DNA of 64,000 nucleotides, from positions 1 through 64,000 of the forward strand of contig NZ_AOLY01000005.1 in assembly GCF_000336635.1 (NCBI RefSeq). Reading direction: 5' to 3'. A model generated the notes under the pieces. The model saw only the letters and a list, made by a program, of their open reading frames with translations. It did not search any database and was not told the DNA's origin. This DNA comes from Haloarcula japonica DSM 6131 (GTDB lineage Archaea > Halobacteriota > Halobacteria > Halobacteriales > Haloarculaceae). Within the stretch, counting starts at the first letter, position 1. Every line of letters begins with the position of its first letter. Position numbers and translations under genes: made by a program. Positions 30,165 to 54,881 of the stretch are shown here, in pieces.

Positions 30165-30299
30165 ATTGGCCGCTCCCGATTCCGAGCGAGTGCTCACCCT
30201 CACTGACTGCTCGTGTCGCTGCTGAGGGACGCCAGCAAAGACATGGGCCCACCCTGTAGGAACTTGATAACAATATGTGTTGAATCCGTAGCTCAGTGT

Positions 30300-41135: not shown

Positions 41136-42473
41136 TCATATCGCCTCTTTGTATGCTTCGAGCGCATTCTCTATGTCTTCACCTGTGTGGGCATCACAGA
41201 TGAACTGTGACTCGAACTGGTTCGCCGTGAGGAACACGCCCCGGTCTTTCATCGCGGGCCAGAACAGGCGCTCCCACCGCTCGGTTTCAGCCTGCTTCAC
41301 GTCGCCCCCGTTCTTGGGACAGTAGTCGAAGCGCGGACAGGACTCCTGCTGCCGGCAGCCAGCCTCACAATGTCCGTCGAAGGAATCGGGTCCGTCGCGG
41401 GTGAAGATGACCTTGAACATCGAATCCCGGCCGACGACAGTGTATTCGGGGGCCTGGTCCCGGAGGATGTCCTGCAGGCCGGACCGGAGCCGGTCCCCGA
41501 GCTCGTTGACGTGGCTGTATACGTCGTGTTCAGCCGCATACCGCAGCGTCTCCAGACCGGCCGCCATCGTCACGGGGTGGCCAGAGAACGTCCCGGACTG
41601 GAACACGTCGCCGGCGGGCGTGAACTGCTCGATGATCTCGCTCTTGCCACCGATTGCACCGACCGGGAACCCGCCGCCGACGATCTTCCCGAACGTGGTG
41701 ATATCGGGGTCGATGCCGAACGCGCCCTGGGCACACTGGAGGCCCCCAACCCGGAAGCCGGTGATGACTTCGTCGAAGATGAGCAGGGAGCCGTGGTCGT
41801 CACACAGTTCGCGCAGGGTCTCGTGGTACCCCTCGACCGGGTGGACGATGCCGTAGTTCCCGAGAATGGGCTCGGTGAGGGCGGCCGCGATGTCGTCGCC
41901 GTGTTCCTCGAACACCTCGTGGGCGGCCTCTTCGTCGTTGAACGGGACGGTCAGCGTGTGCTCGGCGAAGCTCTCGGGGATGCCGGGGCTGGACGGAGCG
42001 GTGTGGTCGCCTTCGCCCTCGACCAGCGTGGACTCCTGTGCACCGTGGTAACCGCTCTGCATCACGACGATTTTATCGCGGCCGGTGTAGCCGCGGGCGA
42101 GCCGGACCGCCGAGACGGTCGCTTCGGTACCGCTGTTGACGAACCGCAGCATCTCGACGCTGGGGACGTGGCGGGTGACGAACTCGGCCAGTTCGACCTC
42201 GACTTCGGTGGGTGCGCCGTACATCGGCCCCTCGGCGGCGTGTTGCTGGATGGCCGACTGGACCTGCTCTGGCAGGCTGTGGCCGAGCAGTAGCGGGCCG
42301 TAGCCGAGGACGAAGTCGATGTAGCGGTTGCCGTCGGCGTCGATGACGTGCCCGCCGTCGCCTTTCTCGACGAAGAACGGGTAGGGTCGTGTCGCCCGAA
42401 CGGAGGAGTTGACGCCGCCCGGAAGCACCGACAGGGCGCGGTCGTACAGCGCTCGCGACTGCTCGTGGTTCAT
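41136..42473 (-). CDS. hemL: glutamate-1-semialdehyde 2,1-aminomutase
   Basis: Forms 5-aminolevulinate from glutamate 1-semialdehyde for heme and siroheme synthesis. 445 residues. Typical family features: [32 protein letters not shown] and Schiff-base Lys in [13 protein letters not shown] Cys-rich insertion ([19 protein letters not shown], before [17 protein letters not shown]) contains four Cys within 20 residues. The start ATG ([13 protein letters not shown]) is 220 bp from divergent nasA. Siroheme is needed by the nitrite reductase in this region. Confidence 0.92.
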
Positions 42474-42574: not shown

Positions 42575-42592
42575 GTAAAGAGTTACTGTTAT
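42575..42592. promoter_or_regulatory. shared nas promoter element, nasA copy
   Basis: GTAAAGAGTTACTGTTAT, identical to the 18 bases at 46,477-46,494 upstream of the second MFS gene. It contains a GTAA-AGAG-TTAC dyad followed by a TATA-like GTTATAC. The last base is 102 nt before the nasA start. It sits in the divergent hemL-nasA region and could affect both. Confidence 0.6.
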
Positions 42593-42693
42593 ACATTGGG
42601 TGTTCATCTACGTAGTTACGAGAATGGTAGCCGAACGTACTGTAATATCATGTAAGAGTGGACAGACGGGCGTCGGACGGCGCGTGATCGGCT

Positions 42694-44754
42694 GTGAGTG
42701 ACTGGGTGCCGACGACGTGTATGCGGTGTGCGGTTGGCTGTGGACACATGCACCGCGGCGCGGACGTGGGCTACGGGATCGACACCGCCCGCGGCGACGC
42801 CGCGCACCCGGTCAATCAGGGGCTGGCCTGCGCTCGCGGGCTCCGGGAGAGCAAGGACCCCGACGGGGAGTGGCTCACCCGGCCCATGGTCCGCAGCGGC
42901 GGCGAACTCCGACAGACCCAGTGGGACGTGGCCCTGGCCCACGCCGTCGAGGGGCTCCAGTCCGTCCACCAGCGGGACCCCGACTCCGTCGCCGTACTGG
43001 GCAGCGGTCAGCAGACGAACGAGGCCGCCTACGCGCTGGGGAAGGTCGCCCGCGGCGGCTTCGGCACGCGCAACTACGACGCCAACACGACGCTGTGCAT
43101 GGCGAGCGCCGTCACCGCCTACTACCAGGCGTTCGGCAGCGACGCACCGCCGTGTACCTACGCCGACATCAGCGACGCCGACCGCCACGTCGTCTGGGGC
43201 GCGAACCCGGCAGTCGCCCATCCAGTCATGTTCCGCTGGCTTCAGCAATCCACCGACGAGGACGGCGTCGAAATCATCGTCGTCGACCCCGTTCGCTCCG
43301 AGACCGCGGAGAACTCCGCGCACCACGTCGCGCCCGACCCCGGCAAGGACCTCGCGCTGGCCCGAGCCGTGCTCGCTCGCATCGTCGAGACGGGGCGGGT
43401 CGACCGCGAGTTCGTCGACGAGGCGACCGAGGGCTTCCAGAAGCTGCTCGCGACCCTGCCTGACGCCGACGACGCGGCCGCCGAGGCCGGCGTCGAGCCG
43501 GCTGACGTGGACCTGCTTGCAGACGCGATGGACCAGCGGGCACTCATCTACTGGGGCATGGGCATCAATCAGCATGTCCAGGGCACCGAGACCTCGCGGG
43601 CGCTCATCGACCTGACGCTGGCGACGGGGAACCTCCGGCCCGGCGGCGGTCCGTTCTCGCTGACAGGCCAGGCCAACTCCATGGGGACCCGCATCTGCTC
43701 CTCGAAGGGGTCCTGGCCCGGCCAACGGGCCTTCGAGGACCCGGACCACCGCCGTACCGTCGCCGACCACTGGGACGTACCGGTGGACCGCCTCCCCGAC
43801 GACACCGGTCCCGGCCCGGTCGGGATGCTCGAAGACGAGCCAGACGCCGTCTGGGCCGTCGCCACGAACCCCGTCGCCGGGATGCCCGAAGCCGATTCGG
43901 TCCGCGAGACGCTGGAAGACGCGTTCGTCGTCGTACAGGACGCGTTCCACACCGAAACGACCGAGATCGCTGACGTGGTCCTGCCCGCCGCGACGTGGGG
44001 GGAAAGCGAGGGCACGACGACGAACATGGAGCGGACCATCTCCCGCGTCCGGCCAGCGACCGACGTGCCGAGCGGCGTCAAGCCGGACCTGGACATCATC
44101 GCCACCATTGGCTCGCGGCTGTTCCCCGGCCTGTTCGAACACACGACGCCGGACCCGTCGGACGTGTTCGACGAGTTCGCTGCGCTCACCGAAGGGACGG
44201 TCGCCGACTGCTCGGGCATCACCTACGAGCGACTGGACGACGTGCACGCCGTCAGGTGGCCCGCGCCCGACGAGGACAGCGCCGGTGGCTACCGCTACTA
44301 CGACGAGGAGTCGTGGTCGTTCCCAACCGCCTCCGGCCGCGCGCAGTTCTCCACCGGCCGGCAGGGGTCGCTCCCGGAGCCGACCGACGAGGACTACCCG
44401 CTGACGCTGACGACCGCTCGGGAGGCCGACGGGTACAACACCGGCGTCCGCTCCCGCGGCGGCGAGGCCGGCACGCTGGTGGCCCGCATCCACCCCGAGA
44501 CGGTCGACGCACACAGCGGTCTCGTCACCGACGGTGAACTGACCGTCGAGACCCGCCGCGGCTCCGCGACGGTCGCCATCGACCGCGACGAAGGCGTTCC
44601 TGCGGGGATGGTGTGGCTCCCGATTCACCACCCGGTGACGAACCGGCTGACCCTTTCCGACCGGGACCCCCAGTCCGACGAGCCGAACTTCAAGCAATGT
44701 GCCGCCCGCCTGGTCGCCGCCGAGGCCGAACTGCCGCCCGCCGCGGCTGACTGA
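42694..44754 (+). CDS. nasA: assimilatory nitrate reductase, catalytic subunit
   Basis: Molybdopterin enzyme reducing nitrate to nitrite in the cytoplasm with reduced ferredoxin as probable donor. 686 residues from a GTG start. The N-terminal [4Fe-4S] ligands are Cys9, Cys12, Cys16 and Cys46 (TTCMRCAVGC...LACARG). NYDANTTLCMASAV (Cys135) supplies the Mo thiolate, as in NasA. GMGINQHVQGTETSRAL, the AATWGESEGTTTNMERT segment and a C-terminal molydopterin-dinucleotide domain with WLPIHHPVTNRLT complete the fold. No Tat signal, consistent with an assimilatory role. It is converged upon by the MFS gene at 44,845. Confidence 0.9.
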   Translation: MSDWVPTTCMRCAVGCGHMHRGADVGYGIDTARGDAAHPVNQGLACARGLRESKDPDGEWLTRPMVRSGGELRQTQWDVALAHAVEGLQSVHQRDPDSVAVLGSGQQTNEAAYALGKVARGGFGTRNYDANTTLCMASAVTAYYQAFGSDAPPCTYADISDADRHVVWGANPAVAHPVMFRWLQQSTDEDGVEIIVVDPVRSETAENSAHHVAPDPGKDLALARAVLARIVETGRVDREFVDEATEGFQKLLATLPDADDAAAEAGVEPADVDLLADAMDQRALIYWGMGINQHVQGTETSRALIDLTLATGNLRPGGGPFSLTGQANSMGTRICSSKGSWPGQRAFEDPDHRRTVADHWDVPVDRLPDDTGPGPVGMLEDEPDAVWAVATNPVAGMPEADSVRETLEDAFVVVQDAFHTETTEIADVVLPAATWGESEGTTTNMERTISRVRPATDVPSGVKPDLDIIATIGSRLFPGLFEHTTPDPSDVFDEFAALTEGTVADCSGITYERLDDVHAVRWPAPDEDSAGGYRYYDEESWSFPTASGRAQFSTGRQGSLPEPTDEDYPLTLTTAREADGYNTGVRSRGGEAGTLVARIHPETVDAHSGLVTDGELTVETRRGSATVAIDRDEGVPAGMVWLPIHHPVTNRLTLSDRDPQSDEPNFKQCAARLVAAEAELPPAAAD

Positions 44755-44844
44755 GGCTCGCTGGCACCGTCGGCCCTTCTCGTGCGGTGCTGTCGACTGC
44801 GTTTTTCGAGCCCACCAGCGGACAGGTCGCGAAAAAGCGCCGAG

Positions 44845-46158
44845 CTAATCGTCCGCCGGCACGGCGTCGGCCGCAATCGTCGGCTGGTTGTTGTACAGCC
44901 GTTCCGAGAGCGCGACGGAGACGAACGCGAGCACGACGAAGACGGCGAATCCAGTAGCGTAGCCGGCTGTACCGTAGACGTCGACGAACACGCCGAGCAC
45001 TGGTGGGACGACGAAGCCGCCGAACGCGCCGAGCCCGCCGACGAGGCCGGACGCGCCGCCGACGGCCTCGGGGACGTATTTGGGCACGAGCTGGAACACG
45101 GCGGCGTTGGCGACGCCCATGCCGACCGCGAGCGAGATGGTCGCCCAGAGCGCAATCGTGTAGTTACGCGTCGTGACGACAGCGAGTGCGGCAACGCCGA
45201 CGAGTACGAAACTCAGGACGGCCGTCACCTCGCCGCCGATGCGGTCGCTCAGGATGCCGCCGGGAACGCGGATGAGCGCCGCTAACAGCGTGAACGCCAC
45301 GGCGGTCAACGCACCGGCCGACTGGGCGTCCATCCCGTGGACCGCGGTCCAGTAGGAGGGGAGCCACACCGTGAGTGCGAGGAAGCCGCCAAAGGAGGTG
45401 AAAAACAGCGCGACCAGCACCCACGTCCGGCGGATGGCCGCCGCCTCGCGGATGGACTCGAAGGCGTCACCGCCCGGGAACAGCTCTTGGCCGTACTCCT
45501 TCGCCCGCTCACGGCTCGCTTCGGCGTCAAGCCCGCCGTCCCGTAGCTGAAACGAAGGCGGGTCGACCGCGATGGCCGCGTACGCGATGGTCCCGACCAC
45601 GAGGAAGCCGAACCAGACGAGATACGCGTTCGTCAGCCCCAGCGCTCCGAGCGCGATCGGCAGCAGGAGCGTGAAAAACCCCGGCGAGCTGTTACCCAGG
45701 CCGGCGTACACCGCGAGCACGGTTCCCTGGGTGTCCTTCGGATACCAGTAGGCGGTCTGTGTCGTCCCGACCGAGAACACGGCGATGCCACAGCCGCTCA
45801 GGGACCCGAACAGGAAGACGAGCGGGTACAGCGTCATCGTCAGCCCGTCGGGATAGAACACCGTGAGCAACACCGCCAGGCCGCCCATCCCGACGATAGA
45901 GAGCCCCAGCAGGACCAGAAACGGCCGCTTCGGGCCGACATCGTCGACCCACGCGCCGAACGGAATCCGCAACAGCGAGCCGGTCAGTTGCGGCGCTGCG
46001 ACGAGCAACCCGAGCGCGAGCCCCGACAGGCCCATCGCCGACTCGAACTCCGAGGCGACGGGGCCATAGAGGACGACGCCGGCGAACCCGATGAAGAAGC
46101 CGAGCGTCGCTGACGTCAGTCCCTGCCGGGGCGACCCACGAACCTCACTGTCGTCCAT
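44845..46158 (-). CDS. MFS transporter, nitrate/nitrite type
   Basis: A 437-residue protein with twelve membrane segments. It begins LGFFIGFAGVVLYGPVASEFE and has the MFS loop GAWVDDVGPKRPFLVLLG between segments 2 and 3 and the nitrate signature-like glycine runs GLGNSSPGFFTLLLP and GGLGAFGGFVVPPVLG in segments 5 and 11. It belongs to the NarK/NasB family by context. The region before its start is very A+T-rich. Confidence 0.8.
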   Translation of the reverse strand: MDDSEVRGSPRQGLTSATLGFFIGFAGVVLYGPVASEFESAMGLSGLALGLLVAAPQLTGSLLRIPFGAWVDDVGPKRPFLVLLGLSIVGMGGLAVLLTVFYPDGLTMTLYPLVFLFGSLSGCGIAVFSVGTTQTAYWYPKDTQGTVLAVYAGLGNSSPGFFTLLLPIALGALGLTNAYLVWFGFLVVGTIAYAAIAVDPPSFQLRDGGLDAEASRERAKEYGQELFPGGDAFESIREAAAIRRTWVLVALFFTSFGGFLALTVWLPSYWTAVHGMDAQSAGALTAVAFTLLAALIRVPGGILSDRIGGEVTAVLSFVLVGVAALAVVTTRNYTIALWATISLAVGMGVANAAVFQLVPKYVPEAVGGASGLVGGLGAFGGFVVPPVLGVFVDVYGTAGYATGFAVFVVLAFVSVALSERLYNNQPTIAADAVPADD

Positions 46159-46265
46159 ACACTATCGCCAGTTCCTTGATTAAATATATTTTCGGTATAG
46201 GGGTAGAAACGTATGGAAAATATTGCGAGAGTTGCTAATATACACAAAATAGGGCTATTAGATTG

Positions 46266-46329
46266 TTCAATTGGACAGTATACTTCTAATCAAACCGTAC
46301 CGGGATCGGCCACTCAATTCAATTGGACA
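46266..46329 (+). repeat. 12-bp direct repeat TTCAATTGGACA
   Basis: Two identical 12-mers start 52 bp apart, about five helical turns, with CAATTG palindrome at the centre of each. They lie about 110 and 160 nt upstream of the start of the leftward MFS gene. They look like paired binding sites for a regulator. Confidence 0.55.
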
Positions 46330-46476
46330 AATAGACATATAGGGGCGAATACAATGAAAAACATCTAAAATATTCTCTTCCGGTCGGCATATTTGATTTT
46401 TCAACGTCCTTAAGGAGAGCATATTCGATGGTATATTGGTCGGCTATTCAACCAGCCTACATAGAATTACCGTTCT

Positions 46477-46494
46477 GTAAAGAGTTACTGTTAT
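46477..46494 (+). promoter_or_regulatory. shared nas promoter element, narK copy
   Basis: GTAAAGAGTTACTGTTAT, identical to the nasA copy at 42,575, 124 nt upstream of the start. The TATA-like GTTATTAAC at its end suggests a leader of about 100 nt for narK. Confidence 0.6.
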
Positions 46495-46606
46495 TAACTG
46501 GCGTTGCATTCGGTCAAAATGTGATAATGTGGTCGAACATCCAAAATAAAACCAAATCGGTGTACAAACACTCGCAGATGAACCCATCTGATAGGCAGTC
46601 CGAAAC

Positions 46607-46613
46607 GGAGGTG
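46607..46613 (+). promoter_or_regulatory. Shine-Dalgarno site of narK
   Basis: GGAGGTG lies 5 nt before the ATG at 46,619. Most genes in this window are leaderless, so this strong site indicates a transcript with a 5' leader and fixes the start. Confidence 0.7.
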
Positions 46614-46618
46614 TCCGC

Positions 46619-47941
46619 ATGGGACTGATCAGGATGACGAAGTACCGGACGCTGCTGCTCGCGACTATCGGGTTCAATTTCTCGTTTCTCATCTGGTTCT
46701 CGTTCGCGCCGTTTACCGGTCCGATGGCCGAGGAGTTCGGGCTCTCGACCGCGGAGATCGGTATCCTGGCGAGTTCGGCCATCTGGATGGCCCCGTTCGG
46801 ACGGATGCTCACCGGCTGGCTCTCGGATAAGTTCGGCGCGCCGGCTATCTTCGCCATTGTGCTGGCCTACGTCGGTGTGTTCTCGATGGCGAGCGCCTTC
46901 GCACAGGACTACGCCGTCTTCTTCGTGTTGCGACTCATCGTAGCGACGGCCGGCATCACCTTCGTCATCGGCATCCAGCACGTCGCCGAGTGGTTCGAAG
47001 AGGAGAACCTGGGACTGGCGGAGGGCATCTACGCTGGCGTCGGGAACGCCGGTGCCGCCGGCGGCGCACTGATTCTCCCCCGCGTGTTCGGCTCCGGCTG
47101 GAGCGGGCCGCTGTTCTCGACGAACTGGCGGGCCGCGTTCTTCTATACCGGCATCGTCTCGATCCTCCTCGCAATCGCCTACTACACGCTCGGCGAGGCC
47201 GCGAAGACCGAGGCGAAACGCCAGGCGACCAAGGAGAACACCAACTTCAAAGGCTGGCTACACACGGCCACGCGGTACGGCACTGTCGTCCTTGCGGCCG
47301 CGTACATCATGTCCTTCGGCCTCGAACTGTCGATGAACGGGTGGCTCGCCACCTACTACCGCGAAGCGTTCAACCAGGACAACCTCGTCATTGCGAGCAC
47401 CTTCGCGGCGACGTTCTCGATTGCTGCGGGACTGCTCCGGCCGTTCGGTGGCTACGGCAGCGATCTGCTGGCCCGCAAGGAGAAGAACATCCTGCCGTTC
47501 TTCAAGGGCCAGTACCGCGAACAGTGGACGTTCCTTGGGCTCTGTTTCATCGTGGTGATGATGTTCGGCATGACGCTGGCCGGCCTCTCCGGGGTCCTGC
47601 TGAACGCCGTCGTCATCGGCTTCCTCGTGGGCACGGGCTGTGCCTGGGCTGAGGGCGCGATATTCGCACAGGTGCCTGCGATGTTCCCCAACGACTCGGG
47701 CTCGGTTGCGGGCGTCGTCGGCGGCGTCGGCACCGTCGGTGGTATCGTCTACCCGCTGTTTTACTCCGCGCCGTGGCTGGCGAACCTCCACCTAGGGTAC
47801 TCCGTAGCCGCTGTCACGATGATCCCCATCGTTGCCCTGTCGGCGTGGGTGTTCCGACCGGAGATCGCGAAAATCGCCAACACGGCCGGGTTCACCGGTA
47901 GCACGCAGGACGCTCCCTCCGTCGCCCCCGGTGACGACTAA
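46619..47941 (+). CDS. narK: nitrate/nitrite transporter NarK family
   Basis: MFS transporter of 440 residues with twelve segments. It begins [22 protein letters not shown], typical of Nar[18 protein letters not shown] and [18 protein letters not shown] are the nitrate-signature regions in segments 5 and 11, and [13 protein letters not shown] is the segment 2-3 loop. It differs clearly from the MFS protein encoded divergently. Nitrite reductase follows 375 bp later. Confidence 0.88.
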
Positions 47942-48316
47942 GACGCGGCTCTCGACCCTGACCGTCAGCGACGCCGGTCCGACGCGCACGACTGACGCCG
48001 CGGCTCCGCAGATACAGTCCCCGTCGGCTGAATCACGCTAGCCCGACCGACCAGGGCGCATTCGCGCTGCCAGATCTCTATATCGACGCCGTCTTGCGGT
48101 TTCGTTTTTTCAACGCCTCCGATATATAACATCCTTAAACACCTCTGAGACGGTATAATTCTGGACGGCTGTTGTGCTAGTCACCTCGGTTCTTCACTTC
48201 TTCAACGATCAGTGTTATAAGGAATCAGGCTGAGTGTTTAGACGTGAATTAGCGGACGTTCGGGAAGATATGAGCGACAAAAAATCACATTCATTAAGAA
48301 CTGAGGGTGACTGAAG
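47942..48316. promoter_or_regulatory. intergenic control region upstream of nirA
   Basis: 375 bp without a gene. It contains TTTTTCAACG (48,106-48,115), also found at 46,397-46,406 before narK, a GATATATAAC box at 48,121, the motif ACTTCTTCAAC (48,196-48,206) and a TTATAAGG box (48,214-48,221), which could be the main promoter. GAGGGTGA (48,303-48,310) is a ribosome-binding site 6 nt before nirA. Confidence 0.55.
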
Positions 48317-50083
48317 ATGGTACACAAAAAAGAGGAGTACAAGGAGGAGTTGTACGGTGACGAAGTACGAGAGAAACTAGAGGAGTTCGCCGAGAAGGGG
48401 TGGGATTCCATCCCCGAGGACGAGCGCGAGAAGTGGTTCTCCCGGTTCAAGTTCTGGGGCGTGTTCCACCACCGCGGCGGCCAGGAGTCGTACTTCATGA
48501 TGCGGCTGACCAACTGCGGCGGCGTCCTGGAGCCCGATCAGCTCCGCGCCATCGGTGAAGTCGCCCGTGATTACGCGAAAGGGCCGGCAGAGAACCCCGA
48601 GTTCGGGAACGGCTGGATCGACCTCACGACACGGCAGTCCATCCAACTGCACTGGCTCAAGCTCGAGGACATTCCGGAGATCTGGGAGAAGCTCGAAGCC
48701 GTCGGCGTCTCATCGCGCTCGGCCGGCGGTGACACGATGCGGAACATCTCCGGCTGTCCGGTCGCCGGCAAGGCCGAGGAGTACGTCGAGTCCCGGCCGA
48801 TCCTCGACGAGATTCAGGAGACCATCCGCGACGACGACGATCTGGCGAACATGCCCCGGAAGTTCAACATCTCGGTGTCCGGCTGCCGGCAGGGGTGTGC
48901 CCAGGACAGCATCAACGATATCGGACTGGAGCCGGCCCGCAAGATTATCGGCGGGGAGGAGGTCGAAGGGTTCAACGTCTGCGTCGGCGGCGGCCTCGGC
49001 GGCCGCGAACCCCGCGAGGCCCGCCCGCTCGACCTGTTCATCCGACCCGAACACGCCGTCGAGACGGTCCGGGCCTTCGTCGAGTTCTACCACGAGGCGG
49101 GCAACCGCCAGAACCGCTCGAAGAACCGCGCTCGGTTCTTCGTCGACGAGCACGGGACCGACGCCATTCGCGAGGAACTCGACGAGCGACTGGACTTCGA
49201 ACTCGAAACCGCCGGCACCGACTTCCGCGGGGAGTACACGTACAACGCTGGCGAGCGAACCGAATACGGTGCCCACGACCACGTCGGTGTCTACGACCAG
49301 AAAGACGACAAGAACTACGTCGGGCTCTCGGTGCCGGTCGGTCGACTCTCCGCCGAGGATGCCATCGAACTCGCGGACCTCGCCGACGCCTACGGCTCCG
49401 GCGAGGTGCGACTGACCCGCCGACAGAACCCGCTCATCATGGACGTGCCCGACAGGAACCTCTCGAACCTCCTCAACGAGCCGCTGCTGGAGAAGCACTC
49501 CCCCGAGCCGAACCCGTTTGTCCAGGGCGCGATGGCCTGTACCGGGACGGAGTTCTGCTCGCTTGCGCTCACGGAGACGAAGGCGCGGATGGCCCGCCTG
49601 CTCCGCTGGCTCGGCGACAACGTCGAGGTGCCCGACGACGTGGACCGCATCAAGATGCATTTCTCGGGCTGTACGGCCGACTGCGGCCAAGCGATGACGG
49701 CCGACATCGGCCTGCAGGGGATGCGCGCCCGCAAAGACGGCCAGATGGTCGAGGCCGTCGACGTGGGCGTCGGCGGCGGCATCGGCGAGGAGCCAACGTT
49801 CATCGAATGGGTGCGCCAGCGCGTGCCCGCCGACGAGGTGCCGGGCATGATCGCCAACATCATCGAGGCCTACGCCGCGTTGCGCTCGGAGGGCCAGACC
49901 TTCCGCGAGTGGGTCGACGCCACCGGCCACGAGACTATCGTCGAACTAGCCGAACCCCACGAGGTCGAGGGGTACACCGACCCGTGCCTGGCCGACGGCA
50001 AGCAGTCGTGGTACCCCTTCGACGACGGCGACAGCCCGGCCCCGACCGACGCCGAGGGCCAGCCGATTTCGGCGGATGACTGA
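48317..50083 (+). CDS. nirA: ferredoxin-nitrite reductase
   Basis: Six-electron reduction of nitrite to ammonium with ferredoxin. 588 residues. The two halves each show a ferredoxin-like (NIR/SIR) domain. Siroheme-[4Fe-4S] ligands are Cys408, Cys414 (CTGTEFC), Cys452 and Cys456 (SGCTADC). NISVSGCRQGCAQD is the pseudo-repeat in the first half. It begins with a charged acidic/basic leader (MVHKKEEYKEELYGDEV). A SD site and the long region upstream indicate regulated expression. It has the role called NasD in Haloferax. Confidence 0.93.
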   Translation: MVHKKEEYKEELYGDEVREKLEEFAEKGWDSIPEDEREKWFSRFKFWGVFHHRGGQESYFMMRLTNCGGVLEPDQLRAIGEVARDYAKGPAENPEFGNGWIDLTTRQSIQLHWLKLEDIPEIWEKLEAVGVSSRSAGGDTMRNISGCPVAGKAEEYVESRPILDEIQETIRDDDDLANMPRKFNISVSGCRQGCAQDSINDIGLEPARKIIGGEEVEGFNVCVGGGLGGREPREARPLDLFIRPEHAVETVRAFVEFYHEAGNRQNRSKNRARFFVDEHGTDAIREELDERLDFELETAGTDFRGEYTYNAGERTEYGAHDHVGVYDQKDDKNYVGLSVPVGRLSAEDAIELADLADAYGSGEVRLTRRQNPLIMDVPDRNLSNLLNEPLLEKHSPEPNPFVQGAMACTGTEFCSLALTETKARMARLLRWLGDNVEVPDDVDRIKMHFSGCTADCGQAMTADIGLQGMRARKDGQMVEAVDVGVGGGIGEEPTFIEWVRQRVPADEVPGMIANIIEAYAALRSEGQTFREWVDATGHETIVELAEPHEVEGYTDPCLADGKQSWYPFDDGDSPAPTDAEGQPISADD

Positions 50084-52726: not shown

Positions 52727-53185
52727 TCAGACGTCAGTTCCGTCGACCGGGAACTGCTCGTGTTCACACACCGTGTTCAGTACAACCGATGTCGAGGCGG
52801 ATCGGATATCCTCGTCGGTCAGCAGCGTCTTTATCCGCTCGTTCATCGACTGCGTGTCGGTGAACTTCCCGACGGCCACGATGTCGTGGTCGCCGGTCAC
52901 TTCGTAGACCGCAATCATCTCGCGTCGATCCCGTAACTGGTCCACCACCCGTCCGAGCCCGTCGCCCTCGACGGAGAGCTGGAACACGGCGGTCACGTCG
53001 TAGCCCAGCGCCCCGTAATCGATGTCGACGGTGTATTCGTCGATCACACCGGTCGCCTCCAGGTCGTCTATCCGGCGCGATACCGTGGTCGCCGCGATGC
53101 CGGTCGCAGCGGCGACGTCACGGGCGCTGGCCCGGCCGTCCTGGAGCAGTGCGTTCACTACCTGTCTGTCGGTATCATCGACCAT
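52727..53185 (-). CDS. Lrp/AsnC-family transcriptional regulator
   Basis: A 152-residue regulator. HTH part: DRQVVNALLQDGRASARDVAAATGIAATTVSRRIDDLEATGVI; C-terminal RAM domain: YDVTAVFQLSVEG...VYEVTGDHDIVAVGKFTDTQSMNERI. It ends the amtB-glnK-lrp group; its start is 9 nt after glnK stop, so it probably controls ammonium or amino-acid genes from the same transcript. Confidence 0.9.
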   Translation of the reverse strand: MVDDTDRQVVNALLQDGRASARDVAAATGIAATTVSRRIDDLEATGVIDEYTVDIDYGALGYDVTAVFQLSVEGDGLGRVVDQLRDRREMIAVYEVTGDHDIVAVGKFTDTQSMNERIKTLLTDEDIRSASTSVVLNTVCEHEQFPVDGTDV

Positions 53186-53194
53186 TTCGTCCGC

Positions 53195-53560
53195 TCAGAC
53201 TGCCTCTGGGCCTTCTTTGCCGGTTCGGACCTGGTAGGCGTTGTCCACGGGGAGGACGAATATCTTGCCGTCACCTTTCTCGCCGGTGTGGGCACCGTCG
53301 GCGATGGCATCGACGACATCCTTTGCGGGGATGTCGGCGACCACCGTCTCGACTTTGACCTTCTGATGCAGGTCGACGACGTACTCCTCGCCGCGCCACT
53401 GTCCCTTCTTTGCGGGCTGTGAGCCGCGGCCGGACACGTTCGTCACTGTCAGCGAGGGTGCGCCGACCTCCGCCAGCGCCTTCTTTACATCGCCGAGTTT
53501 GTCCGGTCGAACCATTGCCACTACCATCTTGATTTCAGAATCGTCGGTTTCGTCAGTCAT
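53195..53560 (-). CDS. glnK: P-II nitrogen regulatory protein
   Basis: A 121-residue trimeric PII signal protein that senses 2-oxoglutarate, ATP/ADP and nitrogen status. It shows [25 protein letters not shown]-loop region [24 protein letters not shown] with Tyr60, and C-loop [21 protein letters not shown]. It probably blocks AmtB through the T-loop. The gene overlaps amtB by 8 nt, the classic amtB-glnK pairing. No GlnD site is evident. Confidence 0.94.
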
Positions 53561-54881
53561 CTTGGGAACCTCCGTCAGTACGCATGCTCGGGCTCACTTT
53601 ACCACCATCGGCAACGACGCTCTCGCCACCACCGAACTCGGGGTAGGTCTCGACGCCGTGTTCGCTGACGTCCAGCCCTTCCTGCTCGTGCTCGGGCGTA
53701 ACTCGGGCCTGACCGGCTGCCTTGAGGGCGTACCAGACAACCCCGGTTGCGACAATCGTCCAGCCCGCGATAGCGGCGACTCCGATCAGCTGTGCGATGA
53801 AGGCGTTGATGACCGACCCGACCGTGCCGGACGTGGCGACGAACGGGAACAGCAGCGTACCGAGCACACCGGCGCTACCGTGAACCGGGAAGACGGCACA
53901 GACGTCGTCGATTTTCATCCGGTTCTCGATGAAGCTGAACACGACCGGCAGCTGTCCGCCTGCGAGGCCGCCGACGATGATTGCGCCCCACCACGTCGTG
54001 GTGTCGGGAATCGCCGTGATGCCGACCAGTCCGGCGAGCAGTCCGTTTGCCACGTACAGGGTGTCGACCTTCCCGGTTTTCAGCCACGCGACCAGTCCGG
54101 CACCCATCGCACCACAGGCCATCGCGATAGTCGTCGTCATCGCGACACGGCCGACCGTCGCGAACGCACCGAGGGCAAGCGATCCGTCCTCGACGACGAA
54201 GACGGTCGCCGCCGTACCGACGTTGAAACCGTACCAGCCAAACGCCAGAATGAGCGTTCCCAGAACGGCGAACGTCAGGGAGTGGCCCGGGATGACGTTC
54301 GCGGAGCCGTCCTCGTTGTACCGACCCATGCGTGGGCCGAGGACGTATGCCGCCGTGAGGCCCGCGATGCCGCCCATGCCGTGGACGATCATCCCGCCGG
54401 CGAAGTCGTGGAATGCCTCGCCGCCGAAGCTAATGTACGCGCCGGCCCACGTGATTCCGGTGACGACGGGGTAGATGACCGCCGCCAGCAGGAACGTGTA
54501 CGTGATGTACGCGCGGAGCTTGGCTCGTCCGGCGACTGCGCCGGAGACGATGGTCGCTGCCGTCATCGCGAAGACAGCACCGAACAGCCAGCCGACGTAG
54601 TCGTTTGCGGCCCCGGCACCGAACGCGGGCGAGAACCCGCTGCCCCCGACCAGGGAACTGATCCCCGAGCCGATAAGGAAGAACACCGTCACCCCGACCG
54701 ACCAGGTCAGGAGGTTCTTCGTCAGCTGGTTCGCGACGTTCTTCGAGCGCACCTGCCCCGCCTCCAGCATGGCGAAGCCAGCGTGCATGAAGAAGATCAG
54801 GAACGATACCACCAGTACCCACATCAGGTTGACACCCTCCGCGAGTACGGTCGGATCTACTTGTAGTGCAGTGTAGCTCAT
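53553..54881 (-). CDS. amtB: ammonium transporter
   Basis: Amt/Rh channel of 442 residues with eleven membrane segments. Conserved features: [22 protein letters not shown] and [14 protein letters not shown] in segment 1-2; [17 protein letters not shown] (conserved pore His region) and [16 protein letters not shown] (second pore His). AGGTGA 7 nt before the start is a ribosome-binding site. It is first in the amtB-glnK-lrp operon. Confidence 0.93.

Follow-up and report, generated by a model that had tools for sequence, protein, structure and literature searches.

In this work we have analysed a 64,000-nt stretch of haloarchaeal DNA (here called the window) and found that the promoters of its nitrate-assimilation genes nasA, narK and nirA share a short conserved element, which we term the nas box. 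Judged from comparison across the class, the 18-mer GTAAAGAGTTACTGTTAT, which stands before nasA and narK, is the Haloarcula version of a wider haloarchaeal element with the approximate consensus TTnKTMAASRRWYASNGTTWTA. What is established here for the nas box is its sequence, where and in which orientation it stands, how it is conserved and its specificity for the regulon; we consider it probable that it is a promoter element in which the site of a pathway-specific regulator overlaps the BRE/TATA region. The control of nitrate assimilation in haloarchaea has been called unknown, and only unspecified palindromes at single promoters have been described (PMC8143581, PMC2483277, PMC6801745). No earlier report of a nas-box consensus was found in the openly accessible literature, although absence there is not proof. 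The element offers a concrete handle on the control of nitrate use in salt-loving archaea, by which the circuit becomes experimentally tractable. The features of the window to which we refer are the following.

Minus strand: hemL, probably starting at the ATG at 42473 and not at 42596
42575..42593, + strand: nas box of nasA, GTAAAGAGTTACTGTTATA; contains the exact 18-mer, is the top matrix match in the window and lies about 120 nt before nasA in relatives
42589-42592, + strand: TTWT/TATA part of the nasA nas box (box positions 15-18)
42615..42622, + strand: predicted nasA transcription start region, placed by TATA spacing about 44 nt downstream of the first box base
42624..42701, + strand: putative nasA leader ORF of 25 codons (24 in most relatives), its stop overlapping the nasA start
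42694..44754, + strand: nasA, assimilatory nitrate reductase, 686 aa, GTG start, named by homology, with the conserved N-terminus SDWVPTTCMRCAVGC
44845-46158, minus strand: second MFS transporter
46477..46495, + strand: nas box of narK, GTAAAGAGTTACTGTTATT; contains the exact 18-mer, is the third matrix match and lies 142 nt before narK in most relatives
~46520 and ~48244, + strand: predicted transcription start points of narK and nirA, at an offset equivalent to that of nasA
46527..46628, + strand: putative narK leader ORF of 33 codons, overlapping the narK start
46619..47941, + strand: narK, MFS nitrate/nitrite transporter, 440 aa, ATG start, named by homology
48201..48219, + strand: nas box of nirA, TTCAACGATCAGTGTTATA; second matrix match, matches the degenerate pattern with 0 mismatches and lies 116 nt before nirA
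48317..50083, + strand: nirA (nasD), ferredoxin-dependent assimilatory nitrite reductase, 588 aa, named by homology
52727-53185: Lrp gene, beside glnK-amtB

The exact 18-mer occupies 42575-42592 and 46477-46494, both on the + strand, and these are precisely the two places where the first-pass annotation had reported an identical element before nasA and narK. It gave distances of 102 and 124 nt; from the end of the 18-mer to the start codon we measured 101 nt for nasA (GTG 42694) and 124 nt for narK (ATG 46619). Its judgement that chance identity was very unlikely agrees with our shuffling, since 0.01 matches at up to three mismatches were expected (100 shuffles), and with the conservation of both copies across the genus. 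It had also stated in advance that the idea would fail if the 18-mer were common at unrelated genes; a scan of the rest of the 4.28-Mb genome revealed no further copy at up to three mismatches. Could the pair still be explained by chance, or by a recent local duplication of one promoter? The exact identity of the two window copies is what such an origin would leave behind. However, each copy is independently conserved across the genus with different flanks, and the element recurs in other genera and families; the explanation is refuted by this conservation, and we give it next to no credence.

The nearest named relatives of the window belong to Haloarcula, and the window is assigned to this genus. 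We searched 146 genomes of the family at up to two mismatches. The element was found in 19 of them, mostly with two copies that share a strand, and at all loci but one from this search it stands before nasA or narK. The distance from box to start codon is fixed within the genus, at 120 nt for nasA and 142 nt for narK, while the intervening sequence is poorly conserved; the window nasA, at 119 nt, has one base fewer than its relatives. Further examples of the wide form, GTAAACGATTACCGTTTAG, TTCAACGATTAGCGTTTTA and GTCAAGAGATAGCGTTTTG, come from nasA upstream regions of additional genera and families. We built a matrix of 19 columns on nasA promoters, and in 41 of 77 nasA upstream regions it located a clear site. 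Its three best matches in the window are the boxes of nasA (23.7), nirA (21.9) and narK (18.2), against a best score of 7.5 in the reversed-sequence control; the fourth, at 30266 on the minus strand (14.9), precedes no plausible gene. The copy before nirA had been overlooked in the first-pass annotation because at 7 of 18 positions its base is not that of the 18-mer.

The specificity of the matrix was assessed by counting sites that scored above 15 in 922 kb of sequence from 80 named haloarchaeal loci. There were 90, and 87 of them precede nasA (42), nirA (33) or narK (12) at 104-163 nt, all on the coding strand, whereas the reversed control of the same 922 kb gave 2 matches. At nirA the box lies 104-121 nt upstream in most of the 33 named loci. 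Of the other three sites, one was assigned to the second MFS transporter, one is a nasA promoter read in antisense and one lies at the end of a locus. In a near-identical region (L143) a site like the one at the locus end stands before nirA, and two of these three sites are accounted for. A strict degenerate pattern gave 11 matches in 28 genomes, which by coordinate comparison belong to nine nasA, one nirA and one narK. With a slightly wider pattern we obtained 29 matches in 21 NasA-positive genomes and none in 23 NasA-negative genomes. The gene that follows is nasA, nirA, narK, a paralogue of narK or the second MFS transporter in 27 of the 29 cases. When 391 genomes were searched, a match was present in 73 of 196 NasA-positive genomes versus 6 of 195 NasA-negative ones (Fisher p = 8e-19, a value that is overstated, as the genomes are non-independent). 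Three of the latter six matches precede mobA, a cofactor gene of the nitrate pathway and the nasC of the Hfx. mediterranei operon, which we recognised by its sequence. Twenty matches were picked for the unclear identity of their gene: six precede nirA, four precede mobA and ten look like chance. The pattern matches at a sulfatase gene, an hsp20 promoter and an SLC13-type gene in other genomes were taken as chance. In the window's own genome, the pattern with one mismatch allowed occurred in kinase-like, transposase-like and ABC-transporter contexts, at about the control rate.

The search of other haloarchaeal nas loci which the first-pass annotation had called for has in this way recovered the element across many genera, almost only at promoters of the pathway. 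One site at several separately transcribed or unlinked genes of one pathway, and almost nowhere else, is the distribution expected of a pathway-specific operator, and it is the one seen here. Comparison of these promoters strongly supports the view that the nas box marks a regulon of nasA, nirA and narK, to which mobA and the second MFS transporter belong elsewhere; with its class-wide ties to nasA, nirA, narK and mobA, the box would define this regulon. About half of the NasA loci have no scoring box, many of them with nasA apparently downstream of another gene, and regulation at these loci must therefore differ.

What kind of element is the nas box? The first-pass annotation had stressed a GTAA-N4-TTAC dyad. 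This dyad is indeed present in both copies of the 18-mer and nowhere else in the window, but it is not conserved in the orthologous promoters. It is often broken in relatives, because the typical Haloarcula versions are GTAAAGAGTCACTGTTAT at nasA (in many species) and GTAAAGGGTTACTGTTAT at narK, and the exact dyad occurs in 9 of 68 distinct sites. In these 68 sites no column pair covaries as an inverted repeat, and pairing is as expected from column composition, for centres at 6.5 and at 10. We also considered an alternative dyad, AACG-N5-CGTT, whose conservation and covariation were no better than column composition, and rejected a palindromic operator of a dimeric regulator, for which a conserved, covarying inverted repeat would be expected. 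Absence of palindrome covariation is unusual for the site of a dimeric regulator. Since there is no covarying inverted repeat and the dyad is found in only 9/68 sites, the box is, as read from its sequence, a directional element fused to a TATA box (TTWT). The earlier reading is corrected in two respects: the directional TMAA-SRRWYA-SNG-TTWT is meaningful rather than the dyad, and the regulon also takes in nirA. The haloarchaeal TATA motif is TTWT (PMC4983044), which the 3' part of the box matches, with TTAT or TTTT at positions 15-18 in nearly all sites. The box is nevertheless not merely a TATA box, because the upstream 13 nt keep most of the specificity: with these 13 columns alone, nas genes still account for 55 of the top 60 sites, but most of the specificity is not kept when only the TATA part is used.

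The haloarchaeal BRE has been published as CGAAA (PMC4983044) and would lie just upstream of the TATA part; roughly at its place the boxes carry CGATT or CGGAT in most genera and AGAGT or GAGAT at Haloarcula nasA and narK. Is it possible that the box is a specialised core promoter, a non-standard BRE and TATA read directly by one TFB/TBP paralogue, of which haloarchaea have several, without a separate regulator? The strict direction toward the gene, the rigid coupling to TTWT (87 of 90 sites) and the lack of dyad covariation would all suit such an arrangement, as would the conserved positions 6-10, which fall roughly where the BRE (CGAAA, PMC4983044) would be. A TFB would, however, be expected to serve many promoters, and each genome has the box at no more than 2-4 promoters; the conservation of the box also extends upstream (T2, A4, A5 and TT at -2/-1). 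We regard a specialised core promoter as unlikely but as a serious rival. Slightly less likely again is the consequence that a dedicated BRE-TATA core promoter with one specialised TFB/TBP pair would place the pathway under a general-factor switch and not under a classical repressor or activator.

We prefer the reading in which a pathway-specific regulator site overlaps the BRE/TATA region. The nas box would then be a directional mark of the nitrate-assimilation regulon, about 19-21 bp long, its 3' third, GTTWTA, serving as the TATA box and its 5' two thirds, TMAASRRWYAS, covering the place of the BRE and reaching a few bases further upstream. A pathway-specific factor would bind the 5' part and, once bound, would set the access of TBP and TFB according to nitrogen supply, so that the promoters would be off on ammonium and on with nitrate or in the absence of ammonium. 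Transcription would begin about 44 nt downstream of the first box base, a start that we predict from TATA spacing and from which leaders of about 70-100 nt are predicted; the nas box would in this way forecast both transcription starts and leader lengths. The sequence CGTRAA, common to many nirA and several nasA promoters, lies about 44 nt from the first base of the box. In H. volcanii, 72% of mapped transcripts are leaderless (PMC4983044). In Hfx. mediterranei, nitrate induces nasABC and nasD, both of which are silent when ammonium is supplied (PMC2483277, PMC8143581, PMC8229911). The Amt/GlnK genes of the window carry no box, and the signal may thus not be general nitrogen status. Against the preferred reading also stand the NasA loci without a scoring box, the absence of palindrome covariation and the lack of a regulator gene that consistently adjoins the nas genes. 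The first-pass annotation had proposed either the site of a nitrate/ammonium regulator or an unusual core promoter, and the comparative evidence strongly supports a pathway-specific promoter element.

Which protein could bind the nas box? A search among the neighbours of nas loci found no regulator gene that consistently adjoins the nas genes. For Hfx. mediterranei nasABC an Lrp/AsnC regulator has been suggested (PMC8143581), and the nas box might be an Lrp/AsnC-type operator and high-affinity target, a special case of the regulator-site explanation in which the regulator is named. The nasABC promoter of that species captured an Lrp/AsnC protein, HFX_0246, in a pull-down (PMC8143581), the Lrp gene of the window adjoins glnK-amtB, and Lrp-like genes lie by nas genes in several other species. 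However, the nas-linked Lrp genes are few, at about the level of chance, close relatives of the window Lrp are present in 24 of 24 genomes tested, NasA-negative ones included, and both the AAAGACTAART motif (PMC6801745) and the TAGAT stretch are unlike the box. We would put forward this identification only tentatively and lean somewhat against it. As to the lack of co-distribution with the box, a global regulator need not co-distribute. The nas box itself provides a short piece of bait DNA with which the regulator can be sought.

It is useful to compare the nas box with known systems. The GvpE UAS of gas-vesicle promoters and the Bat-type UAS of bop are haloarchaeal activator sites next to the BRE. 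Like them, the nas box is a short conserved element at or upstream of the BRE/TATA region and dedicated to one pathway; unlike them, it has another sequence and no supported inverted repeat, and it occurs in many genera and at genes of nitrate assimilation. Methanogens possess the NrpR operator, GGAA-N6-TTCC, which is nitrogen-regulated and overlaps the promoter. The nas box can be likened to it as a probable archaeal nitrogen-regulated, promoter-overlapping site, but the sequences differ, and direct reading of the three window boxes found no GGAA-N6-TTCC. The nitrogen-response network of haloarchaea is poorly understood next to the NrpR/NrpA of methanogens (PMC6801745). Of the same pathway as our element are regions 1 and 2 of the Hfx. 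mediterranei nasABC promoter, which are needed for expression on nitrate, with repression by ammonium; that work gave no consensus (PMC8143581). The experimentally mutated TAGAT of this species is absent from the promoters of eight box-bearing Haloferax species and is no part of the nas box in the Haloferax promoters examined. The AAAGACTAART motif of H. volcanii, linked to an Lrp regulator and located upstream of 492 genes (PMC6801745), is likewise a haloarchaeal nitrogen-related promoter motif. It differs from the nas box in sequence, in its association with alanine and polyamine/amt genes and in its abundance, 492 genes versus 2-4.

Lastly, the short leader ORFs, which occur in Haloarcula and in some related genomes, deserve attention. 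Their ATG is offset from the box start by 49 nt at nasA and 50 nt at narK. Could the repeat act at the RNA level, or within leader ORFs that control the translation of nasA and narK? The similar placement of short ORFs, which begin 49-50 nt past the box at either gene and overlap the nasA and narK starts, is suggestive, and in 21 relatives the nasA leader keeps its ATG at -71 and its open frame. The box, however, lies upstream of the predicted start and hence would not be transcribed, and at Haloarcula nirA no such ORF begins near the predicted start (GTGAATTAG). Moreover, the nasA leader lacks codon-level selection, its synonymous fractions being alike in the three frames (0.24, 0.24 and 0.26) with no 3-periodicity. 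We consider control at this level very improbable. A functional nasA leader peptide is unsupported too, as codon-level selection was not seen despite the open frame. The leader ORFs could take part in translational coupling.

Because the conserved hemL start is probably the ATG at window position 42473, hemL and nasA are divergent and the nas box lies between them; the hemL reading frame called up to 42596 is probably too long. Downstream of the nasA and narK boxes, at a distance of 49-50 nt in each case, are two short leader ORFs:

42624-42701, leader ORF of 25 codons overlapping the nasA start codon
46527-46628, leader ORF of 33 codons overlapping the narK start codon

The frame of the nasA leader ORF stays open across 21 related genomes, among which no amino-acid selection on it was found. 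Between the predicted transcription start and nasA, four loci from Natrialbales-type genomes (L082, L093, L107 and L114) carry a near-perfect inverted repeat, for example GTGTGATTGTAAATCACAC, which may act as an RNA hairpin or as a second operator.

Inserted between nasA and narK is a further transporter gene:

44845-46158, minus strand, second MFS transporter

The same gap also holds this gene in Haloarcula mannanilytica (L200). The window copy has no box of its own, and the orthologue in Natronorubrum texcoconense (L230/L334) does have one. The box was likewise found upstream of mobA, the gene for molybdenum cofactor guanylyltransferase, at four loci (L363, L364, L365 and L375), three of them from genomes without a strong NasA match. 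At a distance of 2.6 kb from nirA is another group of genes:

52727-54881, Lrp/AsnC gene at 52727-53185 with adjoining glnK and amtB

No nas box was found at amtB or glnK in the window.

Lastly, single in-frame TGA stops interrupt the nasA matches of L319 and L321, and another lies within the nirA match of L161; these stops, in loci from other genomes, may reflect pseudogenes or sequencing errors.
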